NCBI GenBank assembly: GCA_016840965.1
Contig: JAEORI010000036.1
Span: 1 to 15,727 of the forward strand
Source: Candidatus Thorarchaeota archaeon
Lineage (GTDB): Archaea; Asgardarchaeota; Thorarchaeia; Thorarchaeales; Thorarchaeaceae
Direction of reading: 5' to 3'
DNA: 15,727 bases
Part shown: positions 2,872-12,294 of the stretch, piece by piece
Numbering within the stretch: position 1 is the first letter of the stretch
Layout of the letters: each line of letters begins with the position of its first letter
Made by a program: the position numbers and the translations under genes
The notes under the pieces: generated by a model
The model's database searches: none
Seen by the model: only the letters and a program-made list of their open reading frames with translations
Told to the model about the DNA's origin: nothing

Positions 2872-3900
2872 CTATGCAGCTGTGCCATTGACTGCGTCAG
2901 CATATTCCATCTGAGCACTCTTTCCAAAATCAAGTTCTCCAGCGAAATGACATGCAACCTGATGACCATCACCCATGTCCCTAAGAGCTGGATCCTCAGT
3001 CTTGCATATATCTTGTGCAAAAATGCATCGAGGATAGAATCTGCATCCTGGAGGAGGACTGATTGGACTAGGAACTTCACCGGACAGAATTTGTGCTCTC
3101 CCTGCAAACTTAGGATTGGGAATTGGAACTGCAGATACGAGAGCAAATGAGTAGGGATGGAGTGGTTTCTTGAATATATCATAGGGAGTTGTTTCAACTA
3201 CCTTGCCCAAGTACATCACTGCAAGCCGGTCACTCATGTGCTTCACGACAGACAGGTTATGGGAAATGAACATATAGGTCAAATCAAACTCATCCTGAAG
3301 ATCCTTCATGAGATTCAAAGTCTGTGCTTGAACTGATACATCAGTACTAGACGTTGGCTCATCCATAACAACGAATTTTGGATTAAGCGCTAGAGCACGG
3401 GCTATGCAAATCCTCTGTCTCTGACCACCTGAAAACTCATGTGGGAACCGATTAAGGTGATCTTCAGTTAAACCTACTTTCTGAAGCAGGTCAAGAACAA
3501 TTGCTCTCATCTTTCTTCCCTTTGCGACTCCATTCACAACTAAGGGTTCGCCAATTGAGTTTTTAATTGTGACACGAGGGTCGAGAGAAGCCATAGGATC
3601 CTGAAATACAATCTGCATGTTAAAACGAACTTTTCTTAGAGCTCTCCCCTTGAGTTTGGTTATATCCTCGTTTTCAAAGAAAATTTTGCCGCTTGTCGGA
3701 TCCATAAGTCGAAGAATTGTCCGTCCAAGAGTAGTCTTTCCACACCCACTCTCACCGACAACACCTAGTGTTTCACCCTTCTTGATATCAAGGTTTACGC
3801 CATCTACGGCATGCACTTTTCCAATAATCTTCCGGAAAACTCCTCCTGTGAGCGGAAAGTGTTTCTTAAGATCTACAGTTTTGATTAATGTATCACTCAT
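2872..3900 (-). CDS. dppF: Peptide/nickel-type ABC transporter ATP-binding protein F (OppF/DppF-like)
   Basis: This is one of the two motor subunits driving substrate import at the cytoplasmic face. Numbered from ATG 3900 it has 342 residues, normal for the family. Visible: Walker A GESGCGKTT (49-57), Q-loop Gln 100 in VFQDP, signature FSGGQRQR (156-163), Walker B VVMDE (177-181) with catalytic Glu 181, and H-loop His 214. The C-terminal oligopeptide-transporter domain has Cys 286, 292, 299 and 317 in the CX5C-X6-C...VACH pattern known to hold an iron-sulfur cluster in this family. The D-loop reads SSTD where SALD is usual. Start choice: TAAGGAG, overlapping the upstream gene's stop, lies 8 bases before ATG 3900 but only 2 bases before ATG 3906, so 3900 is preferred. 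It follows ATPase D by 12 bases. It ends in TAG; the next in-frame stop is 28 codons on. Confidence 0.93.
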   Translation of the reverse strand: MSDTLIKTVDLKKHFPLTGGVFRKIIGKVHAVDGVNLDIKKGETLGVVGESGCGKTTLGRTILRLMDPTSGKIFFENEDITKLKGRALRKVRFNMQIVFQDPMASLDPRVTIKNSIGEPLVVNGVAKGRKMRAIVLDLLQKVGLTEDHLNRFPHEFSGGQRQRICIARALALNPKFVVMDEPTSSTDVSVQAQTLNLMKDLQDEFDLTYMFISHNLSVVKHMSDRLAVMYLGKVVETTPYDIFKKPLHPYSFALVSAVPIPNPKFAGRAQILSGEVPSPISPPPGCRFYPRCIFAQDICKTEDPALRDMGDGHQVACHFAGELDFGKSAQMEYADAVNGTAA

Positions 3901-3918
3901 TATCATATCTCCTTAATC
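3901..3918 (-). promoter_or_regulatory. Shine-Dalgarno of ATPase F overlapping the stop of ATPase D
   Basis: Read on the minus strand, TAAGGAG combines the TAA stop of ATPase D (3913-3915) with an AAGGAG ribosome-binding site. Its spacing picks ATG 3900 over ATG 3906 as the start and implies coupled translation. Confidence 0.7.
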
Positions 3919-5070
3919 AGTCAGAGGATGGTGACAAGCCACCCAATGGCCAGTTTCAAGCTCTTCCAGGAGAGGTTTTTTCTCCCTGCAAATATCTGTA
4001 GCATAATCACATCTTGGATGAAAACGACATCCAGGAGGGGGTGTGATGAGGTTTGGAACATTTCCTCTAATCTGAGGCAGACGCTCTTTCTCTTCGTGCA
4101 GTTTAGGTACAGCGGTCAAGAGACCGTCTGTATACGGGTGCAAAGGTCTAGCGAATAGCTCCTTTGTATCACATGATTCAACAGTTGTCCCTGCATACAT
4201 GACATTGACCCAGTTACATGTTTCAGCAACTACACCCATGTCGTGTGTAATCACGATGATTGAGGTGCCAATTTCTTTCTTTAGCTGGTTCAATAATTTA
4301 AGCACTTGCGCTTGAACTGTGACATCCAGTGCTGTTGTTGCTTCATCACAGATTAAAATGCTTGGATTGCATGCAAGTGACATTGCAATCAATGCTCGTT
4401 GCCTCATACCTCCTGAAAGTTCATGAGGATACTGATTAACTACCTGCTCGGGTGCAGGCATTCTTACTAGTCTAAGCATCTCAATAGACTTTAGCTTGGC
4501 AGCTTCCTTCAATGACTTCTTATCTGGTTCAGGAGGATCATCTAGCTGCTGTTTGTAATAAGCAATCTTGCTTTCGATTTCAGCTCGGTTTTCATCAGAG
4601 GTTGTTTCAGATAGAGCAAGTTCCAGCTTTGCTATCTTCATATAAAGGGCATCAAGGGACAGATCTTGGTGAAGTTGAATTACTTCCGCGATTTGGTCAC
4701 CTATTCGGAAAACAGGATTGGGATATGTTGCAGGATCCTGAAACACAATCGAAATTTTATTTCCACGAATCTCAAGCATTTCTTCAGGTGCAAGTTGAAC
4801 CAAATCAAGTTCCTGTATCTCTTGGGACTCTTCCTCTTTGTCATAGAACAAGATTTGCCCATCTTCAATCTTTCCAGGTGCCTCTACAAGACGGAGGATA
4901 GCTTTTGCTGTTACACTCTTTCCACAACCGGTTTCTCCAACAACACCCATTGTGTCGCCTCTTCGAAGAAACATTATGACTCCATCGAGTGCTTTCACGA
5001 CGCCTTCATACGTATAGAAGTTCACAAACAGGTCTTTGACATGTAGTACTAGTTCTTGAGACATTGTCAT
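3913..5070 (-). CDS. dppD: Peptide/nickel-type ABC transporter ATP-binding protein D (OppD/DppD-like)
   Basis: Second motor subunit of the importer. From ATG 5070 it has 385 residues. Visible: Walker A GETGCGKSV (45-53), Q-loop Gln 111 in VFQDP, signature LSGGMRQR (218-225), Walker B ILICDE (238-243), H-loop His 276, and the C-terminal PPPGCRFHPRC domain with Cys 348, 354, 361 and 379 in the CX5C-X6-C...C iron-sulfur pattern. Two oddities: the usual DEPTTALD reads DEATTALD, and residues about 136-196 are a charged, probably coiled-coil insertion in the helical subdomain, which explains why it is longer than typical OppD proteins (about 325-350). Start choice: the frame is open to 5151, but the upstream permease ends at 5075, and GGAG lies 8 bases before ATG 5070, leaving a 4-base gap. 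ATG 5064 is a weaker alternative. Confidence 0.93.
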   Translation of the reverse strand: MTMSQELVLHVKDLFVNFYTYEGVVKALDGVIMFLRRGDTMGVVGETGCGKSVTAKAILRLVEAPGKIEDGQILFYDKEEESQEIQELDLVQLAPEEMLEIRGNKISIVFQDPATYPNPVFRIGDQIAEVIQLHQDLSLDALYMKIAKLELALSETTSDENRAEIESKIAYYKQQLDDPPEPDKKSLKEAAKLKSIEMLRLVRMPAPEQVVNQYPHELSGGMRQRALIAMSLACNPSILICDEATTALDVTVQAQVLKLLNQLKKEIGTSIIVITHDMGVVAETCNWVNVMYAGTTVESCDTKELFARPLHPYTDGLLTAVPKLHEEKERLPQIRGNVPNLITPPPGCRFHPRCDYATDICREKKPLLEELETGHWVACHHPLTD

Positions 5071-5074
5071 TTTA

Positions 5075-5767
5075 TCATCTCCGTCGAAGTTTTGGATCCA
5101 AGATATCTCTGACTCCATCTCCCACCAGGTTGAATGCAAGTGCTGTAACAAGTATTGCCAGCCCTGGATAGAGTGTCATCCAAGGTGAACTAAGGATATA
5201 GTTCTGACCTCTAGCAATCATCATGCCCCACTCTGCAGTACCAACTGGTGGACCAAAGCCAATGAAGGCTAGACCAGCAGCTACCAGAAGAACTGAACCA
5301 AAATCCATAGTAGCCTGAACAATCACCGGTTGAATTGTATTGGGAAGAATGTGACTGAACAGAATTCTGGTATCGCTTGCTCCAGAAGACCGTGCAGCCT
5401 CAATGTAGAGCTTTTCCCTTTCTGAGAGAACCTGTCCTCGAACAAGACGAGCATACGTAGGCCACCATGTAATCATTAAGGCTATGCTAATAGTACCCAA
5501 ACTTCTTACACCTATTGCCATGACAATTGCCATAGCTAATACAAGTCCTGGAAATGCGAAGAAGATATCAGTGACTCGCATTACAAGTTCGTCCAGTTTA
5601 CCACCGAAGTAGCCAGATGCTGCACCGATGATTGCTCCTGATGTTAGAGCAACTAACACAACGCTAAGTGCAATCCGAAGGTCTTCCTGGGCACCCCAAA
5701 TGATTCGACTATAGATGTCACCACCATAGCTGTCAGTACCCCAAATATGGATAGGGTAGATACTGAA
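5075..5767 (-). CDS. dppC: C-terminal half of peptide ABC transporter permease C (after an in-frame TAG)
   Basis: This is the membrane core of a DppC/OppC permease. Codon 345 onward of the full reading frame gives FSIYPIHIWGTDSYGGDIYS, the family's conserved GTD-x-x-GxD-x-xSR entry motif, followed by about five transmembrane helices. The cytoplasmic coupling loop reads EAARSSGASDTRILFSHILP, the EAA motif that docks on the ATPases, and the end is DPKLRRR with TGA. It is in the same frame as the N-terminal half (5768-6799), separated only by one TAG codon at 5768-5770. A start within this half would have to be GTG 5659 or later, which would lose the conserved GTD region and part of the first core helix, so an independent start is unlikely. 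It ends 4 bases before ATPase D. Family call is sure; whether a full-length product is made is not. Confidence 0.85.
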   Translation of the reverse strand, partial: FSIYPIHIWGTDSYGGDIYSRIIWGAQEDLRIALSVVLVALTSGAIIGAASGYFGGKLDELVMRVTDIFFAFPGLVLAMAIVMAIGVRSLGTISIALMITWWPTYARLVRGQVLSEREKLYIEAARSSGASDTRILFSHILPNTIQPVIVQATMDFGSVLLVAAGLAFIGFGPPVGTAEWGMMIARGQNYILSSPWMTLYPGLAILVTALAFNLVGDGVRDILDPKLRRR

Positions 5768-5770
5768 CTA
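5768..5770 (-). other. In-frame TAG inside permease C
   Basis: The minus strand reads ATT GTG ATT GCT TAG TTC AGT ATC. Frame is kept exactly: the sequence before it belongs to the extracytoplasmic domain and the sequence after it to the conserved permease core. No frameshift is needed to join them. It is either a nonsense mutation, a sequence error, or a UAG that is translated. Confidence 0.9.
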
Positions 5771-6799
5771 AGCAATCACAATCCTAGTATTTGCAGACCA
5801 TGTGCTTGTTTTATATGGTGCAATGAATTGAAGCTCCCAAACATAGTTGCCCACCTCATCTGGAAGTTGGATATACTGCAGAAGATTTTGGTTGAGAACT
5901 GATACATTTGCATAAAGATAGGTTCTTCGTTCGGCTGCTGTCATATCCTGGTAATCTGTTAAGTTAAGACTATAGATTCTGAAGGTGACATTAACCGATA
6001 CAGCATCAGCTCCAGTCCTCAGATCACTGACTCCAACAAAAAGTTTCGGAATCTCAATAGTTTGAAGATAGGCCTCAGTTATTCTCACCGCGCCATATTT
6101 GTAGTCAGGCATTATTTCTGGATTGAAATATCTATCTTCCAAGAGATATTCATAGTTTTGTTTAATATCATTGCTTGGTGATCCGGGTGGAAGTCTGACA
6201 TCATCAAAGACCATGTCTGTGCCTTTATAGGGGGCTATCCAAGGTGCTGCAAAAGCTACTCCGACCATGAATACAATGATTGCAATTCCTGCTACAACCA
6301 GCGGACTTTTCCTAATAAGATGAAGGGTGAAACGAGTTTCCTTAATTCGTGGTTTTGTATCCTCTTTAAACTCCTCGAACCAGAAGTATCGTACACCTGG
6401 AAGGAACAAAAACAATAGTTGAAGACCAATTACACCAATGAATATGAGGCCAATCCAACCAATTGTTGCATATATAACAGCTAACAAGAGATATAGGTAG
6501 AATGAGCTAGCGAAGGCATCTGGTATTCGGTCACTGACCCCTTGATTCGATCTTAAGAGGAAGAAAGTCAACATCAGGATGATTAGACTCTGTAACATCC
6601 ATGCTCCAAGGAATTCTGGAACAGCGATCACAATACCCAACCATCCCTCAATTGCATAAACGAAGTTTCCGACGAATATTATCCCACCAAACATTAGACT
6701 AAGCATAACGAAGACTATCTGTAATAATGCGAGTACGCGAACAGTTGTAGTGTCCTGAGGTTCATATTGAGTTTCTGGATTCTGAGAGTCTGAGTCCAT
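5768..6799 (-). CDS. dppC: N-terminal half of peptide ABC transporter permease C, with extra membrane domain and large outer domain
   Basis: Up to the TAG this half has 343 residues from ATG 6799. Residues 1-18 are polar. Residues about 20-136 form three to four hydrophobic helices not found in ordinary DppC proteins. Residues 140-165 are a charged linker (FEEFKEDTKPRIKETRF). Residues 158-190 are the canonical first DppC helix and its flanks (HLIRKSPLVVAGIAIIVF ... APWIAPY). Residues 191-343 are an about 150-residue extracytoplasmic domain rich in strands and Tyr, where ordinary DppC has about 40. The frame then continues past TAG into the permease core, for about 573 residues plus the TAG position. 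Start choice: ATG 6799 leaves 16 bases after the permease B stop; ATG 6850 would overlap permease B by 35 bases. A truncated product would lack the coupling loop and could not transport. Confidence 0.85.
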   Translation of the reverse strand: MDSDSQNPETQYEPQDTTTVRVLALLQIVFVMLSLMFGGIIFVGNFVYAIEGWLGIVIAVPEFLGAWMLQSLIILMLTFFLLRSNQGVSDRIPDAFASSFYLYLLLAVIYATIGWIGLIFIGVIGLQLLFLFLPGVRYFWFEEFKEDTKPRIKETRFTLHLIRKSPLVVAGIAIIVFMVGVAFAAPWIAPYKGTDMVFDDVRLPPGSPSNDIKQNYEYLLEDRYFNPEIMPDYKYGAVRITEAYLQTIEIPKLFVGVSDLRTGADAVSVNVTFRIYSLNLTDYQDMTAAERRTYLYANVSVLNQNLLQYIQLPDEVGNYVWELQFIAPYKTSTWSANTRIVIA

Positions 6800-6815
6800 C
6801 TTACCATCACTTCCG

Positions 6816-7850
6816 TTATCCAAATCTGATTCGTGGATCGAGAACACCATAAATCATGTCAACGATGAAATTCGCTGTGACAAAGATAAATGCAACAAGC
6901 AGCGTGAATCCGTTGATGGCTGCGATATCTGAGTTCAGAATTGAACTTGTAGCCCAACGTCCCAATCCAGGCCAATTGAAGATAGTTTCCGTTAGAACAG
7001 CTCCAGTTATTAATCCACCAAAAGCCAGACCAATAACTGTGACGGTTGGAATGAGTGCATTCCTCAATGCGTGCTTATAGATCACAACTCTTTCTGTAAG
7101 CCCTTTGGACTTTGCTAGAGTGATGTAATCTTCTTTTATCACCTCAAGCATACTTGAACGCATCATTCTAGTGATTATTGCTAGAGTGATATATCCAAGA
7201 CAGAAACCAGGCATAATAAGATGCACTATAGCATCTACGAATAGATATGGGTTGTGTTCAAACAGTAGTGAATCTATCAGTAGAAATCCAGTGGTAGGAG
7301 TCCAAGAAAATGCGCGATAATTATATCGATCCCCACCTGGAAGATACGGGAGGTTCCATTGTGAGAATTGAAAGAAGAGCACATACTTCAACATTAAACC
7401 AAACCAAAAGATTGGCATCGAAACACCTGTGAGTGCAAAGATACGAGTGATATGATCTGCAACTTTGTCTTTCCTAGTTGCTGATATAATACCTAGTGGA
7501 ATGCCAAGAACTATCGCTATTATCATAGCAACAATGGACAGCTCAATAGTTGCAGGGAACAACATGGCAAGAACAGTGAGAACAGGCAAATCAGCACCTG
7601 TAGTAGTGCTTACACCCCAATCTCCTCGGAATAAAGAACTCAAATAAAGGAAGTATTGTACAACTAGTGGTTGATCCAGACCACGAGCTCGTATAATACC
7701 AGGTATTGCAGCATCCGGAGTTCTCTCTGTAACGTACATGGCTAAAGGATCACCAACTACGTATGAGAGAAACCAAGTTATGGTCAATACTCCAAACACT
7801 ACTGGAATTGCTAATATTATCCTTCGAAGTACAAAGTCCCTGAGCTTCAT
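6816..7850 (-). CDS. dppB: Peptide/nickel-type ABC transporter permease B (DppB/OppB-like)
   Basis: First gene of the minus-strand transporter operon and one of the two membrane subunits forming the pore. It has 344 residues, typical for the family. The N-terminus has the OppB signature: FVLRRIILAIPVVFGVLTITWFL helix followed by GDPLA. Six helices are visible, with the GLDQPLVVQYFLYLSSLFRGDWG region at about 55-80 on the outer side. The EAA coupling loop reads DYITLAKSKGLTERVVIYKH followed by ALRNALIP at about 239-265. The end is the conserved TETIFNWPGLGRW segment, a last helix and LDPRIRFG. ATG 7850 has GAGG about 8 bases upstream. A loop at about 165-205 with GGDRYNYRAFSW is somewhat longer than in bacterial relatives. 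It lies 16 bases before permease C and is divergent from the binding-protein gene across 313 bases. Confidence 0.95.
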   Translation of the reverse strand: MKLRDFVLRRIILAIPVVFGVLTITWFLSYVVGDPLAMYVTERTPDAAIPGIIRARGLDQPLVVQYFLYLSSLFRGDWGVSTTTGADLPVLTVLAMLFPATIELSIVAMIIAIVLGIPLGIISATRKDKVADHITRIFALTGVSMPIFWFGLMLKYVLFFQFSQWNLPYLPGGDRYNYRAFSWTPTTGFLLIDSLLFEHNPYLFVDAIVHLIMPGFCLGYITLAIITRMMRSSMLEVIKEDYITLAKSKGLTERVVIYKHALRNALIPTVTVIGLAFGGLITGAVLTETIFNWPGLGRWATSSILNSDIAAINGFTLLVAFIFVTANFIVDMIYGVLDPRIRFG

Positions 7851-7940
7851 TGATAGTCCTCAATCAGGCTTGTTTACATATACATAGGAATCCAATCTCG
7901 TAAACTACTGCTTGCCCACATTGTGTAATACTTAAGCTTT

Positions 7941-7974
7941 TGGTTATCATCAATGGGATGGTTATCATCAATGG
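7941..7974. repeat. Tandem direct repeat, 16 identical bases at an 18-base period
   Basis: TGGTTATCATCAATGG occurs at 7941-7956 and again at 7959-7974. An 18-base spacing is close to two helical turns, so two regulator copies would sit on nearly the same DNA face. The GTTATCAT core recurs once more at 7996-8003 as part of the palindrome. Probable operator; the regulator is not in the window. Confidence 0.7.
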
Positions 7975-7997
7975 CAGTTCGATGATATCTGATGAGT

Positions 7998-8009
7998 TAT
8001 CATATGATA
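7998..8009. promoter_or_regulatory. Perfect 12-base palindrome TATCATATGATA
   Basis: The palindrome lies 16 bases before the plus-strand TATA-like box. With flanking bases it reads GTTATCATATGATACC, so its left half repeats the GTTATCAT core of the tandem repeat. A dimeric regulator bound here could overlap the basal factors at the box. Confidence 0.5.
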
Positions 8010-8025
8010 CCAATTGAAACGTAAG

Positions 8026-8034
8026 CTATATTAG
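8026..8034 (+). promoter_or_regulatory. Candidate TATA box for the binding-protein gene
   Basis: CTATATTAG with a purine-rich GAAACGTAAG directly upstream looks like BRE plus TATA. Transcription would begin near 8055 and leave a leader of about 108 bases that includes two sets of inverted repeats. A later TTAAAAAC at 8151-8158 is too near the ATG to serve. Confidence 0.4.
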
Positions 8035-8068
8035 CATCTAAATCTAGCGTGTGAACTAATAGCGAAGT

Positions 8069-8107
8069 TAGACTGATACAGAGTTTGAGAATTTTGATAT
8101 CAGTCTA
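8069..8107 (+). repeat. Perfect 10-base inverted repeat in the binding-protein leader
   Basis: TAGACTGATA (8069-8078) pairs with TATCAGTCTA (8098-8107) across a 19-base spacer. It could be a DNA-binding site or an RNA stem in the leader. Confidence 0.55.
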
Positions 8108-8114
8108 GTTTGTT

Positions 8115-8150
8115 GTTGCGATTCATTCATTGAATCGTTCATAGCGCAAC
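8115..8150 (+). repeat. Nested inverted repeats just before the binding-protein start
   Basis: CGATTCA (8119-8125) pairs with TGAATCG (8131-8137) across a 5-base loop, and GTTGCG (8115-8120) can alternatively pair with CGCAAC (8145-8150) around it. The two pairings share bases, so they could be alternative folds 14 bases before the start codon. Confidence 0.4.
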
Positions 8151-8163
8151 TTAAAAACACGAG

Positions 8164-10041
8164 ATGGATGACATGGAGAGAAATCAATTAATAGCTGTCG
8201 TCGTAATCATCGTTGTTGTAGGTTCAGTTGGAGCGTACATTCTTCTGGCACCTCCGCCAATAACACTTGCAGAAGACCAGACGATTGTTTTTGAAACAAT
8301 AGCGCTTCCTGAATACTTGGACCCACACAAAGACTACGAGTCAGCTGGTTCGCATGTAAGTTTCAACGTTTATGAAACGTTGTATACTTATCCGTGGGAT
8401 ACTGCAGACACGACACCATCTGTTCCACTGCTTGCTACGGATGTAGATATATCAGCAGATGGAAAGACATACACCTTCACACTTCGTCAAGGTGTCACAT
8501 TCCATGATGGAACTCCCTTCAACGCGACCTGTGTCCAGATGAACTTCTGGCGAATGTTAGGACGTGGTTGGGATGATGGCTTTGGTCCAGTCTGGATGGT
8601 CGCAGAACCAATCCTGGGTGGTCAAGCCGTTGAGGATGCAGTATTCGAGTATGGAGACAGAAGTGCTGAGCACATCGCAGCTTGGGCAAACTGGCAAGCA
8701 AACGTCAGTGCAGTTGTTGTAACTGGTGACTATGAGGTGGAGATTCACCTTGCATATGCATTTGCACCATTCCTGCCTGCTATCACCTATGCAGTTGGAG
8801 CAATGATCAGTCCAACCTTCTTCATGGCTCATGGTGGAATGTCACCGGCGAGTGATGACTTCACCTTGGACAGTGAAACGTGCGGTACTGGTCCATTCAT
8901 TTTTGAGGAGTGGATTGACAATGACAGACTCTCAGTAGTACGCAATGACGACTATTGGAGAGCTGCTGATGCAAAGTTAACTCACCCCTACGCAGGTACT
9001 ATTGAGAAGGTCACATGGAAGAAGAACATTGACATAAACAGCAGAATGCTGAACTTGCAAGCTGGGACTACTGACACTTGTGACTGGCTAACAACCAATG
9101 CCTATGATATCTGGAACAACGTTACCACTCGCAATCCTAACGGTATTGGACAGAGTATCAATCCTGATGTCAAGGTCTGGACAGGTCTGCCAAACTACAA
9201 TGTCGCGTTCCTAGGGTTCAACATGAACGACTACCTGAACTATTCAGGCGAAATCGTTCTGAATCCATTCCAAGACTGGGAGCTAAGAACAGCTTTGACG
9301 TACGCATTTGACTATGATGCATACATCAATAATCTCCTAAACGGAATTGCTATTCCACTAGCTGGACCAATTCCAAAGGGTCTATTCGGACATAATGATG
9401 CAATAGTCCCATACGTAACGGACTTAGCTACAGCAGTCACACACTGGAACCTAGCTATGGCAAATGGATTGGATGACATCTTTGCAAACAACTCATATCA
9501 GGTAAACATCTATTACAACGAAGGTAACACTGGTCGTGAGGGTGCTAGCCTACTGCTCAAGTCGGCTCTAGAAGCAATCATTGCCGATCCAGCTTCGACT
9601 GATCCAACCACACCTCTTACCATTGATGTATATGGTCTTGAGTGGGCAAGCTATCTCTACCAAGTAAGGAACAGGCAATTGCCAATCTTCTTCCTTGGTT
9701 GGATGCCTGACTACGCTGACCCTGACAACTACATCTCACCCTTCGTCAAGAGCACTGGTACCTATCCATACAGAATGGGTCTTGAAGGCTCAACTGGTGA
9801 GGGTGATGTAGTTTGGGATCACGTGGCTATCGATGCTTTGATTGCCGATGCTGCCAAGGAATCTGATCCTGCTGAAAGGATTGTAATCTACAACGAGATT
9901 CTAGATGCTGTTATGGCTCACAATGCGTTTATCTGGACCTCCCAGGGAATTGAATTCCATGTTGAAGGAGCCTGGATGAACGGATATGTGTTCAATCCAA
10001 TGCATGACGAGTACTGGTACCACTACTACAAGACTGCATAG
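8164..10041 (+). CDS. Family 5 solute-binding protein of a peptide ABC transporter
   Basis: This 625-residue protein captures the substrate outside the cell and hands it to the permeases. Residues 8-28 are a hydrophobic segment (LIAVVVIIVVVGSVGAYILL) with no lipobox Cys, so it is probably a membrane-anchored archaeal binding protein. The mature part carries the family 5 pattern: LDPHKDYESA near 52, VYETLYTY near 69-76, the TYTFTLRQGVTFHDGTPFNA signature at about 102-121, TGPFIFEEW, LRTALTYAFDYDAYI in the second half, and GWMPDYADPDNYISPF near the end. Length exceeds typical DppA (about 535). Several Asn-X-Ser/Thr sites are present, as often glycosylated in archaea. Codons ending in C look more frequent than in neighbours, suggesting high expression. 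ATG 8173 is an alternative start. It stops at TAG, followed nine codons later by TAA and then a terminator hairpin. Substrate cannot be told. Confidence 0.93.
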   Translation: MDDMERNQLIAVVVIIVVVGSVGAYILLAPPPITLAEDQTIVFETIALPEYLDPHKDYESAGSHVSFNVYETLYTYPWDTADTTPSVPLLATDVDISADGKTYTFTLRQGVTFHDGTPFNATCVQMNFWRMLGRGWDDGFGPVWMVAEPILGGQAVEDAVFEYGDRSAEHIAAWANWQANVSAVVVTGDYEVEIHLAYAFAPFLPAITYAVGAMISPTFFMAHGGMSPASDDFTLDSETCGTGPFIFEEWIDNDRLSVVRNDDYWRAADAKLTHPYAGTIEKVTWKKNIDINSRMLNLQAGTTDTCDWLTTNAYDIWNNVTTRNPNGIGQSINPDVKVWTGLPNYNVAFLGFNMNDYLNYSGEIVLNPFQDWELRTALTYAFDYDAYINNLLNGIAIPLAGPIPKGLFGHNDAIVPYVTDLATAVTHWNLAMANGLDDIFANNSYQVNIYYNEGNTGREGASLLLKSALEAIIADPASTDPTTPLTIDVYGLEWASYLYQVRNRQLPIFFLGWMPDYADPDNYISPFVKSTGTYPYRMGLEGSTGEGDVVWDHVAIDALIADAAKESDPAERIVIYNEILDAVMAHNAFIWTSQGIEFHVEGAWMNGYVFNPMHDEYWYHYYKTA

Positions 10042-10085
10042 TCAATAGTAATCAAGTACTTACTCTAAAGCAATAGAACAAATGT

Positions 10086-10126
10086 AGACCGGGGTTTGAA
10101 ACCTCGGTCTCTCTTCTTATTTTTTC
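10086..10126 (+). terminator. Hairpin plus T-rich terminator after the binding-protein gene
   Basis: GACCGGGGT (10087-10095) pairs with ACCTCGGTC (10101-10109) with one G-T wobble and a 5-base loop, followed by TCTTCTTATTTTTTC. A 5' extension of the following gene back to a TTG at 10096 would fall inside this hairpin, so that start is rejected. Such a strong stop fits a highly expressed binding protein. Confidence 0.75.
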
Positions 10127-10177
10127 AGGATATAATACCACACTCATTCAGTTTGATTCATGGCCTAGTTGGAAATG

Positions 10178-10185
10178 CTTATAGC
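10178..10185 (+). promoter_or_regulatory. TATA-like box that decides the start of the six-helix protein
   Basis: CTTATAGC preceded by GGAAATG sits 44 bases before ATG 10222, leaving a leader of about 15 bases. It shows this gene is transcribed separately from the binding protein, whose terminator lies just upstream. Confidence 0.4.
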
Positions 10186-10221
10186 AATTATTTCATTCAA
10201 AAGTTGCAGGTGCCATTTGCC

Positions 10222-11127
10222 ATGCAGACCACAGAGAAAACCAGTAGTTTTTCAACAATGACTTCACATCAAATGTTTACACTATGGTGGGATGAACCAT
10301 GGGTGCGAAATCTTGTTCTACTCCTTTCACCAGTGGGAATCATTGATGCTACCTTTACAGTTCTTCTCTTTTATCAGATTGGTGTCAGTTTTGAATCAAA
10401 TCCATTCGTACGGGCTGCGCTTCTAAGTGAATGGTGGGTTGCTTGGTTCTTCCTCGATGCAATCTCATTTTTCTTATTCATTATGATGGCAGGGTCATAT
10501 TACTTACATACACGAAGAAGTCTCATTGATAATAGAATTGGTCTTGTTTCAGGTCTAGTCGCCATCAGAGTGGGCTTGGCGGCACATAATGTGGTTCGAT
10601 TCTATGGAATATTTCCAGCTGTATTTAGTGGAATAATAATCGGATTGATTACATTCATTATTGTAGACAGTTTGCTTGATCGCACAAGTGATGTAACTTG
10701 GCATGGATTCAAGCAATGGTGGAAACATAAGTTAGACAGGCGACATGATGAAAAGCTTATGAGGACAGCAAGAAAGCAAAAACGTGGAGATGAAACTCAA
10801 TTGGATGAAAAAGTTGAGAGAGATATTGATGCAGAAATAACCACAACCGAAGAACCAGCTAGACCGAGCACACAAAGAATTTGGAGGAAACGTGCTCTTT
10901 ACATATTGGGAGCTGCCGCACTCTTCATATTCATGCCCTATTTCCTTGTGTTTCTTGCAGATGTGACGGGTGTGAGCGCGTTTTCTGAAATCTATGGACC
11001 CTTGGTCTTTTGGAACCAATTATCAGCACCTGCATTTCTACTTGGATTCTTTTCGATTTGCATCTTCACTGCATTGATAATGTATCTAGTCCTAAGATCA
11101 TTTGAGGTTCAAGAAGGAGCTTGGTAA
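10222..11127 (+). CDS. Six-helix membrane protein, DUF5658-like N-terminal half
   Basis: From ATG 10222 it has 301 residues. Hydrophobic helices lie at about 28-55, 70-95, 105-128, 132-152, 228-250 and 264-292. Between helices 4 and 5 is a charged cytoplasmic loop of about 70 residues (KHKLDRRHDEKLMRTARKQK, then an acidic stretch). The first pair of helices has the pattern D-A-x-x-T ... G-x-x-x-E-x-NP, which resembles DUF5658 membrane proteins of unknown function; this is a pattern resemblance, not a search. Start choice: the frame is open upstream into the terminator, but a TATA-like CTTATAGC at 10178-10185 puts the transcript start near 10207, and GGTG lies about 10 bases before ATG 10222. 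It lies between the binding protein and the third ATPase, so an accessory transporter role is possible but unproved. Confidence 0.75.
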   Translation: MQTTEKTSSFSTMTSHQMFTLWWDEPWVRNLVLLLSPVGIIDATFTVLLFYQIGVSFESNPFVRAALLSEWWVAWFFLDAISFFLFIMMAGSYYLHTRRSLIDNRIGLVSGLVAIRVGLAAHNVVRFYGIFPAVFSGIIIGLITFIIVDSLLDRTSDVTWHGFKQWWKHKLDRRHDEKLMRTARKQKRGDETQLDEKVERDIDAEITTTEEPARPSTQRIWRKRALYILGAAALFIFMPYFLVFLADVTGVSAFSEIYGPLVFWNQLSAPAFLLGFFSICIFTALIMYLVLRSFEVQEGAW

Positions 11128-11168
11128 AGACATAGTTGTATTTTAACCATAATGCTTCTTTGACACGG

Positions 11169-11177
11169 TTTATTAAT
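11169..11177 (+). promoter_or_regulatory. TATA-like box of the third ATPase gene
   Basis: TTTATTAAT lies 32 bases before ATG 11209, which would give a very short leader holding GGTGG (11200-11204) as a possible ribosome site. The gene therefore appears to have its own promoter, which argues it is not yet a silent relic. Confidence 0.45.
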
Positions 11178-11208
11178 GCAATAGGGAAACTTTGCTGACG
11201 GTGGCAGT

Positions 11209-12294
11209 ATGACCAAGGGTGACCCATTACTCATCTTAGAAAACCTGAGAGCGTACTATCCTTCAAAAAAAGGACTGGTCAGAGCAGTAGATGATGTTTC
11301 TTTTGAAGTTAGAGAGGGTGAGTGTGTTGGACTTCTCGGAGAGAGTGGGTCAGGAAAGAGTAGTATGGCGCTCGCGATTATGGGGCTGTTTGAAAAAGTT
11401 GCGCGGTTTTCTGCTGGAACATCAAATGATCCAACATTACAAAGAGCGTTCAAGAAAGGGCTTCCTGGTACTACGGATTTACCTGGAGTTCGAGGTAAAG
11501 TATTCTTTAGAGGGAAGGAAATAACTGCTTTATCACAAGATGAACTCACTACAATCAGAGGTCGTGAAATATCACTAGTTCCACAGGGGCTTGGTCATGC
11601 TCTAAATCCAAAACATAGTATTGGACATCAGACTGCTGAACCTGTTGAAATACATGATGAAAACATCAGACTTCTTGAGCTCAAGAGGAAAGTCCTAGAA
11701 TATCTTGGGCTTGTTCAATTAGCTGATGCTAGCATGCGATTTGTATTGGATCCTGGAAGCTTCAGTGGAGGAGAGTCACAAAGGATACTGATTGCTATGG
11801 CGCTCATTGCTGGGCCCTACCTTGTGATTGCTGATGAACCAACTTCAGCTCTGGATGTGACTGTTCAACAGCAGATTATGAATGTCCTAAAGATGATTCG
11901 TGATGAATTTAATGTGTCACTGCTTCTCATCAGTCATGATGCCGGCGTTGTTGCAGAGATGGCTGATAGAGTTGCTATAATGTAGGCTGGTAAGATCGTT
12001 GAATATGCCAATGCAATTGATATCTTTCATGACCCACAACATCCATATACGATGGGACTGATGTCGAGTTTTCCAACAATCGCGATGATGCAGATGCGGG
12101 CTGGAAAGAAACCAAAACTGAGAGGAATTCCTGGAGATTCTCCAGACCTCTGTGCTATACCAAAAGGCTGTGCATTTCATCCTCGATGCAGATACGTAAT
12201 TGATAGGTGCAGAGAAGAAATACCGGAGTATAGAGAGGTAAAACCAGACCACTTTATTCGATGTCATAGATGGGGCGACTTAGATAAAGAATGA
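11209..12294 (+). CDS. Third OppD-type ABC ATPase, interrupted by one in-frame TAG
   Basis: The full frame has 361 positions with TAG at position 259. Before it lies the whole nucleotide-binding core: Walker A GESGSGKSS (44-52), Q-loop Gln 126 in VPQG, signature FSGGESQR (185-192), Walker B LVIADE (205-210), D-loop SALD, and H-loop His 243. After the TAG the same frame continues with AGKIVEYANAIDIFHDPQHP and the C-terminal domain with Cys 321, 327, 334 and 352 in the CX5C-X6-C...C iron-sulfur pattern, then TGA. An about 30-residue insertion lies after Walker A (67-97). Stopping at TAG would leave 258 residues with every ATP motif but no iron-sulfur domain. It is apart from the ATPase D/F pair and has no permease beside it, so it may be an alternative motor for the same importer. 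Family sure; intactness open. Confidence 0.85.
11983..11985 (+). other. In-frame TAG at a conserved tyrosine position of the third ATPase
   Basis: The frame reads GTT GCT ATA ATG TAG GCT GGT AAG ATC GTT. The equivalent positions in the two other ATPases of this window are VMYLGKVVE (codon TAC) and VMYAGTTVE (codon TAT). The TAG differs from a Tyr codon by one base. Confidence 0.9.

Follow-up and report, generated by a model that had tools for sequence, protein, structure and literature searches.

Two internal TAG codons at conserved tyrosine positions in a peptide transporter cluster of a Thorarchaeon: probably ordinary stops, with tyrosine insertion an unlikely candidate

In a 15,727-nucleotide stretch of DNA from a Candidatus Thorarchaeota archaeon (the window), two genes of one ABC transport system are each interrupted by a single in-frame TAG, with the reading frame open on both sides, and both TAGs stand where the related genomes encode tyrosine. 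UAG is probably an ordinary stop in this organism, and each internal TAG would then stem from a lone T-to-G change in a tyrosine codon, introduced either as a base error or by a nonsense mutation of very recent date; we infer that ribosomes stop at both. The sequence-only reading, which had noted the two TAGs without their tyrosine context, proposed that the genome may decode UAG in some contexts. Its observation of two in-frame TAGs in one transport system is confirmed.

The window carries a peptide-type (Opp/Dpp) ABC transporter cluster. On the minus strand lie an OppF-type ATPase (2872..3906), an OppD-type ATPase (3913..5151), the oppC-type permease gene that holds the first TAG (5075..6850), and an OppB-type permease (6816..7850), while the plus strand carries a family 5 solute-binding protein (8164..10041) and an extra OppD/DppD-type ATPase gene that holds the second (11209..12294). 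The other genes of the cluster are uninterrupted, and those for OppF and the binding protein terminate in TAG. The nearest loci belong to two metagenome-assembled genomes (MAGs) labelled Candidatus Thorarchaeota, namely MP5_2600, represented by two loci of one genome (L002 and L011), in which the binding protein is 94% and 97% identical in its two parts, and Yap200.bin7.15 (L001), in which it is 91% identical. Together, oppC and the extra ATPase gene form part of one conserved cluster that is equally spaced in L001, L003, L004, and L005; the position of the ATPase gene relative to the cluster differs in L006 and L010. The window resembles other Thorarchaeota in its set of OppB, OppC, OppD, OppF, binding protein, and extra ATPase, all placed as in L001, L003, L004, and L005, but in two of its subunit genes a TAG stands in frame in place of a tyrosine codon, which none of the examined relatives' copies has. 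One OppC homologue, P0002, is named Candidatus Sifarchaeia and is about 90% identical to those of the Thorarchaeota MAGs L001 and L002, so that it belongs with the window's genus and its label looks doubtful.

The TAG of oppC is codon 361 (5768..5770, minus strand) and separates a 360-residue N-terminal piece matching OppC_N from a 230-residue C-terminal piece matching BPD_transp_1, and the TAG of the extra ATPase gene is codon 259 (11983..11985, plus strand) and separates a 258-residue ABC_tran piece from a 102-residue piece matching oligo_HPY, so that in both genes Pfam domains are matched on either side. Read through the TAG, OppC would have 591 residues and the ATPase 361. At both sites all seven related genomes have tyrosine (TAT or TAC), with TAT in the two closest, and if these closest relatives show the former state, both TAGs arose by a T-to-G change at the third base. 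Tyrosine occupies the OppC column in 49 of the 54 database homologues covering the site (the others have three phenylalanines, one histidine, and one gap), these being what is left of 58 listed proteins after three without alignment at the column, and the protein of the window itself, are set aside. The ATPase column is tyrosine in 118 of 118 covering homologues, taken from the best 120 of 7994 after removal of one short protein and of the window's sequence. Both internal TAGs therefore fall on conserved tyrosines, and this conservation, as judged from the alignments, is a new point beyond the original observation.

Nor were other disruptions seen alongside the TAGs. The earlier statement that neither comes with a frameshift is borne out, as no frameshift and no further internal stop appears among the listed gene rows compared with the open reading frames of eight related loci, and codon alignments of 15 window genes reveal no further stop at columns invariant in at least four relatives. 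Private changes at invariant columns are absent from OppB and the binding protein, so that the remainder of the transporter does not appear to be decaying.

The pair of tyrosine-to-TAG changes is unusual, for a reason other than the one given first. The sequence-only reading had argued that random decay would be expected to use all three stops; both interruptions are indeed TAG, but this carries little weight, since 35% of nonsense changes lead to TAG under the local spectrum and two of two would do so with a chance of about 12%. The tyrosine context is more restrictive. Among the single changes that create a stop in the 15 genes, 182 of 1820 (10%) convert tyrosine to TAG if all changes are equal, and the share falls to 2.0% of nonsense changes when the third-position changes observed along the two branches, window and sister, supply the weights, so that two of two would arise with a probability of 0.01 (equal changes) to 0.0004 (local spectrum), figures that are suggestive only, because the category was chosen after looking. 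Both TAGs are transversions, and stops in pseudogenes, according to the part of Shulgina and Eddy 2021 (PMC8629427) used here, arise mostly by transitions. This double tyrosine-to-TAG change counts against the ordinary-stop reading.

The substitution pattern bears on how old any inactivation could be. Beyond the TAGs, nonsynonymous to synonymous changes number 5:28 on the window's branch and 1:28 on the sister branch, and with this ratio any silencing of the downstream parts cannot be old; the point estimate of the silenced share of the branch is 5.5%, and a share of 15% gives P = 0.007. For the two interrupted genes as a whole the counts are 25:65 against 15:76 in the sister (p = 0.075, TAGs excluded), and for all genes 63:280 against 41:280 (p = 0.054, or 0.084 without the TAGs). 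The picture of ordinary pseudogenes, with relaxed constraint, mixed stops, and frameshifts, does not fit, as no frameshift was seen and constraint persists past the TAGs, though the two genes may have been inactivated very recently.

The window's nonsynonymous excess is located in transversions, where the counts are 37:84 for the window and 19:88 for the sister (p = 0.03, or 0.04 when the two TAGs are left out). The excess gives p = 0.04 and 0.07 once further outgroups are added, and it falls short of significance at columns invariant elsewhere (p = 0.06 to 0.24); it hints weakly at slackened constraint or at a small number of base errors. The window's other changes do not look like random errors, because the residues replaced are as similar to their replacements (mean BLOSUM62 0.85) as those of the sister (0.83), compared with -0.46 for random missense changes. 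This similarity rejects many random errors, and the somewhat elevated nonsynonymous transversions leave room for a few. Sequencing errors biased toward T-to-G are likewise rejected, with neither T-to-G nor A-to-C in excess on the window's branch: T-to-G changes number 7 against 13 in the sister, and 23 against 24 with more outgroups. With the nearest outgroup only, six of seven T-to-G changes in the window and four of 13 in the sister are nonsynonymous (p = 0.057), a difference that vanishes with more outgroups. A search of the open-access literature on Illumina error types returned nothing.

Within the ordinary-stop reading, because the transversion signal weakens without the two TAGs, we give nearly equal credence to error and to mutation. 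Base errors in the consensus of a single contig, which are a realistic prospect somewhat short of even, would fit two isolated transversions in a transporter that is otherwise intact. Real and very recent nonsense mutations, by which the sequenced strain would have a truncated OppC and a truncated accessory ATPase, have perhaps a one-in-three standing; they would fit the continued constraint, and they would need two rare changes close in time, although the first, by idling the transporter, could have opened the way for the second. If the mutations are real, OppC would end ahead of its membrane domain, and the ATPase would keep its nucleotide-binding core and lose its oligo_HPY tail.

TAG is also in normal use as a terminator here. 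It ends four of 14 genes in the window, and where the ends can be compared the closest relative also has TAG (three of three), with the next relative having TAG for the fourth; the next in-frame stop follows these terminators after 3 to 27 codons. As a terminator, TAG is neither avoided nor backed up; such avoidance would not be strictly required for recoding, since in Sifarchaeia, which have a full pyl set, UAG ends 21% of genes (Sun et al. 2021, PMC9723677, as far as drawn on here). No downstream recoding structure follows either internal TAG (z-scores -0.10 and +1.98).

The principal alternative to an ordinary stop is that TAG is partly a tyrosine codon, drifting into tyrosine positions while still ending genes, with a CUA tRNA charged with tyrosine, most simply an altered copy of tRNA-Tyr, competing with release factor. 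We consider this unlikely. It remains a candidate because both internal TAGs fall on conserved tyrosines, with none on another residue, a result that ordinary nonsense mutation would rarely give twice. If TAG were synonymous with the tyrosine codons, about 1.5 would be expected over the 182 tyrosine positions (from third-position rates of 0.0084 for T-to-G and 0.0083 for C-to-G), and two are seen; the persistence of constraint past both TAGs is also in keeping with it. Tyrosine-inserting amber suppressor tRNAs are known as a laboratory type, and one here would likewise give TAG at tyrosine positions with other TAGs still acting as stops, but no such tRNA was seen in the window or in the relatives examined. 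Further against tyrosine insertion are the share of genes ending in TAG, which is unshifted from the sister, the restriction to two sites on one contig, and a low prior. Shulgina and Eddy 2021 inferred an amino acid for nine stop codons in 2309 archaeal species, candidates only, though with a method that cannot detect context-dependent stops (PMC8629427, in the portions relied on here).

The tRNA searches bear directly on this alternative. The window contains no tRNA of any kind, and none of the 66 tRNA matches in the two closest genomes (G001 and G002, both fragmentary MAGs) has a CUA anticodon; Aragorn named tRNAs in 58 of the 63 loci of these genomes, and visual reading covered the five uncalled loci and a tRNA in L108 that it had not called. 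Across 16 genomes of the genus, a pattern for intron-free tRNAs with a CTA anticodon gave 127 hits, fewer than the 186 of the reversed control and hence not enriched, and none of the 50 loci inspected has a CTA anticodon stem. The pattern recovers 30 of 36 intron-free tRNAs; tRNAs whose intron follows the anticodon escape it, as does the tRNA-Pyl of two distant genomes, G195 and G196. In the inspected loci the clearest true tRNAs are tRNA-Arg(UCU) with a D-arm insertion. Aragorn does not call tRNAs of this kind as Arg (L100, L114, L116, L135, and L152-L155).

Copies and fragments of tRNA-Tyr were read in 45 loci, some of them overlapping, and carry the anticodon GTA in 50 segments (33 + 17); the remaining segments are one degenerate TTA and two with a gap. 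Additional 3' fragments of tRNA-Tyr occur in L204, L205, L206, L207, L209, L210, L211, and L184; they start variously from about position 25 to 54, extend to the end of the tRNA, and lie about 0.2 to 5 kb from the tRNA-Tyr gene or from each other, resembling attachment-site remnants. By eye, an open reading frame like transcription factor B is found near or between the fragments in L205, L206, and L207. The repeated duplication of tRNA-Tyr 3' pieces in the order, many of them including the anticodon, would provide raw material for a tyrosine-inserting suppressor. A 'tRNApyl' is moreover reported in Thorarchaeia genomes without pyl genes (Sun et al. 2021, PMC9723677, in the portion used), which could be taken in its favour.

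Pyrrolysine, the example offered by the sequence-only reading, would require the window's genome to have a pyl system that inserts it at each of the TAGs, and we regard this as highly improbable. A full pyl set is known in Asgard archaea, in Sifarchaeia, and the share of UAG terminators there means that use of TAG as a stop is no bar to pyrrolysine. The window shares with Sifarchaeia an Asgard origin, in-frame UAG, and frequent UAG stops, but in Sifarchaeia the pyl genes are present and one in-frame UAG is reported, in a dimethylamine methyltransferase; Pyl is reported in no other Asgard class in the passages cited (Sun et al. 2021, PMC9723677). Here the genes encode OppC and an OppD-type ATPase, with tyrosine at both sites in the relatives, and neither is a methylamine methyltransferase with UAG at its pyrrolysine site. 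The PylS C-terminal domain exceeds the cut-off in two of 227 genomes of the phylum and in none of the 47 of the window's order, and PylB in none of those 47, in searches in which one of 14 controls exceeded the cut-off; the PylS N-terminal domain was found in none of nine genomes, one of them non-Asgard, with a control positive only in Methanosarcina acetivorans. Both genomes that have PylS are only distantly related, sharing 50% identity in ornithine carbamoyltransferase, and Aragorn places a tRNA-Pyl (CTA) near PylS in them (G195 and G196; loci L225, L043, and L044). P0002 was ruled out as a sign of a pyl-bearing class close to the window, as it groups with the genus and the PylS genomes do not. 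Literature on all-TAG pyrrolysine codes was sought in open-access sources and none was found.

It is also conceivable, with very little probability, that the TAGs are real and tolerated, and that each protein is made as two pieces, separately produced by restarting translation, which then assemble. The TAGs do lie between Pfam domains (OppC_N and BPD_transp_1; ABC_tran and oligo_HPY), and downstream frames begin at GTG 5659 on the minus strand and at ATG 12052. These starts, however, sit 36 and 22 codons past the TAGs, cutting into conserved sequence, and no homologue piece ends at either TAG among the 58 and 120 proteins listed, the window's own aside. Split genes and pyrrolysine are the least supported of the readings.

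Stops elsewhere give some measure of the background. Among 12 flagged rows listed, no TAG common to the relatives' copies was seen. Ten rows were checked by alignment, nine of them lying at or beyond gene ends or outside the alignment and one being a TGA midway through a distant paralogue from G216, and the other two (G005 C36 and G006 C195) were judged from the L005 and L006 alignments, which are stop-free from residue 17 or 18 on. With a mid-gene stop in only one of the 12, two in one window are unusual. Separately, a radical-SAM gene in L223 (G207:C11:300-2200) is interrupted in frame by a single TAG where relatives mostly have aspartate or glutamate, and stray TAGs in the order can accordingly arise without a link to tyrosine.

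If the ordinary-stop reading is right, the locus is a caution against inferring recoding from two stops of one contig. On the improbable alternative that a Thorarchaeal lineage reads UAG part-time as tyrosine through a CUA tRNA of tyrosine identity, with UAG kept as a terminator, one codon would carry two meanings in an Asgard archaeon that lacks the pyrrolysine system. From the open-access literature searched, we know of no published case of UAG as tyrosine in a prokaryote, and such a reading would mean a stop codon with two uses among the archaea most closely related to eukaryotes. Under either reading, the tyrosine pattern makes a loose suspicion sharply testable.
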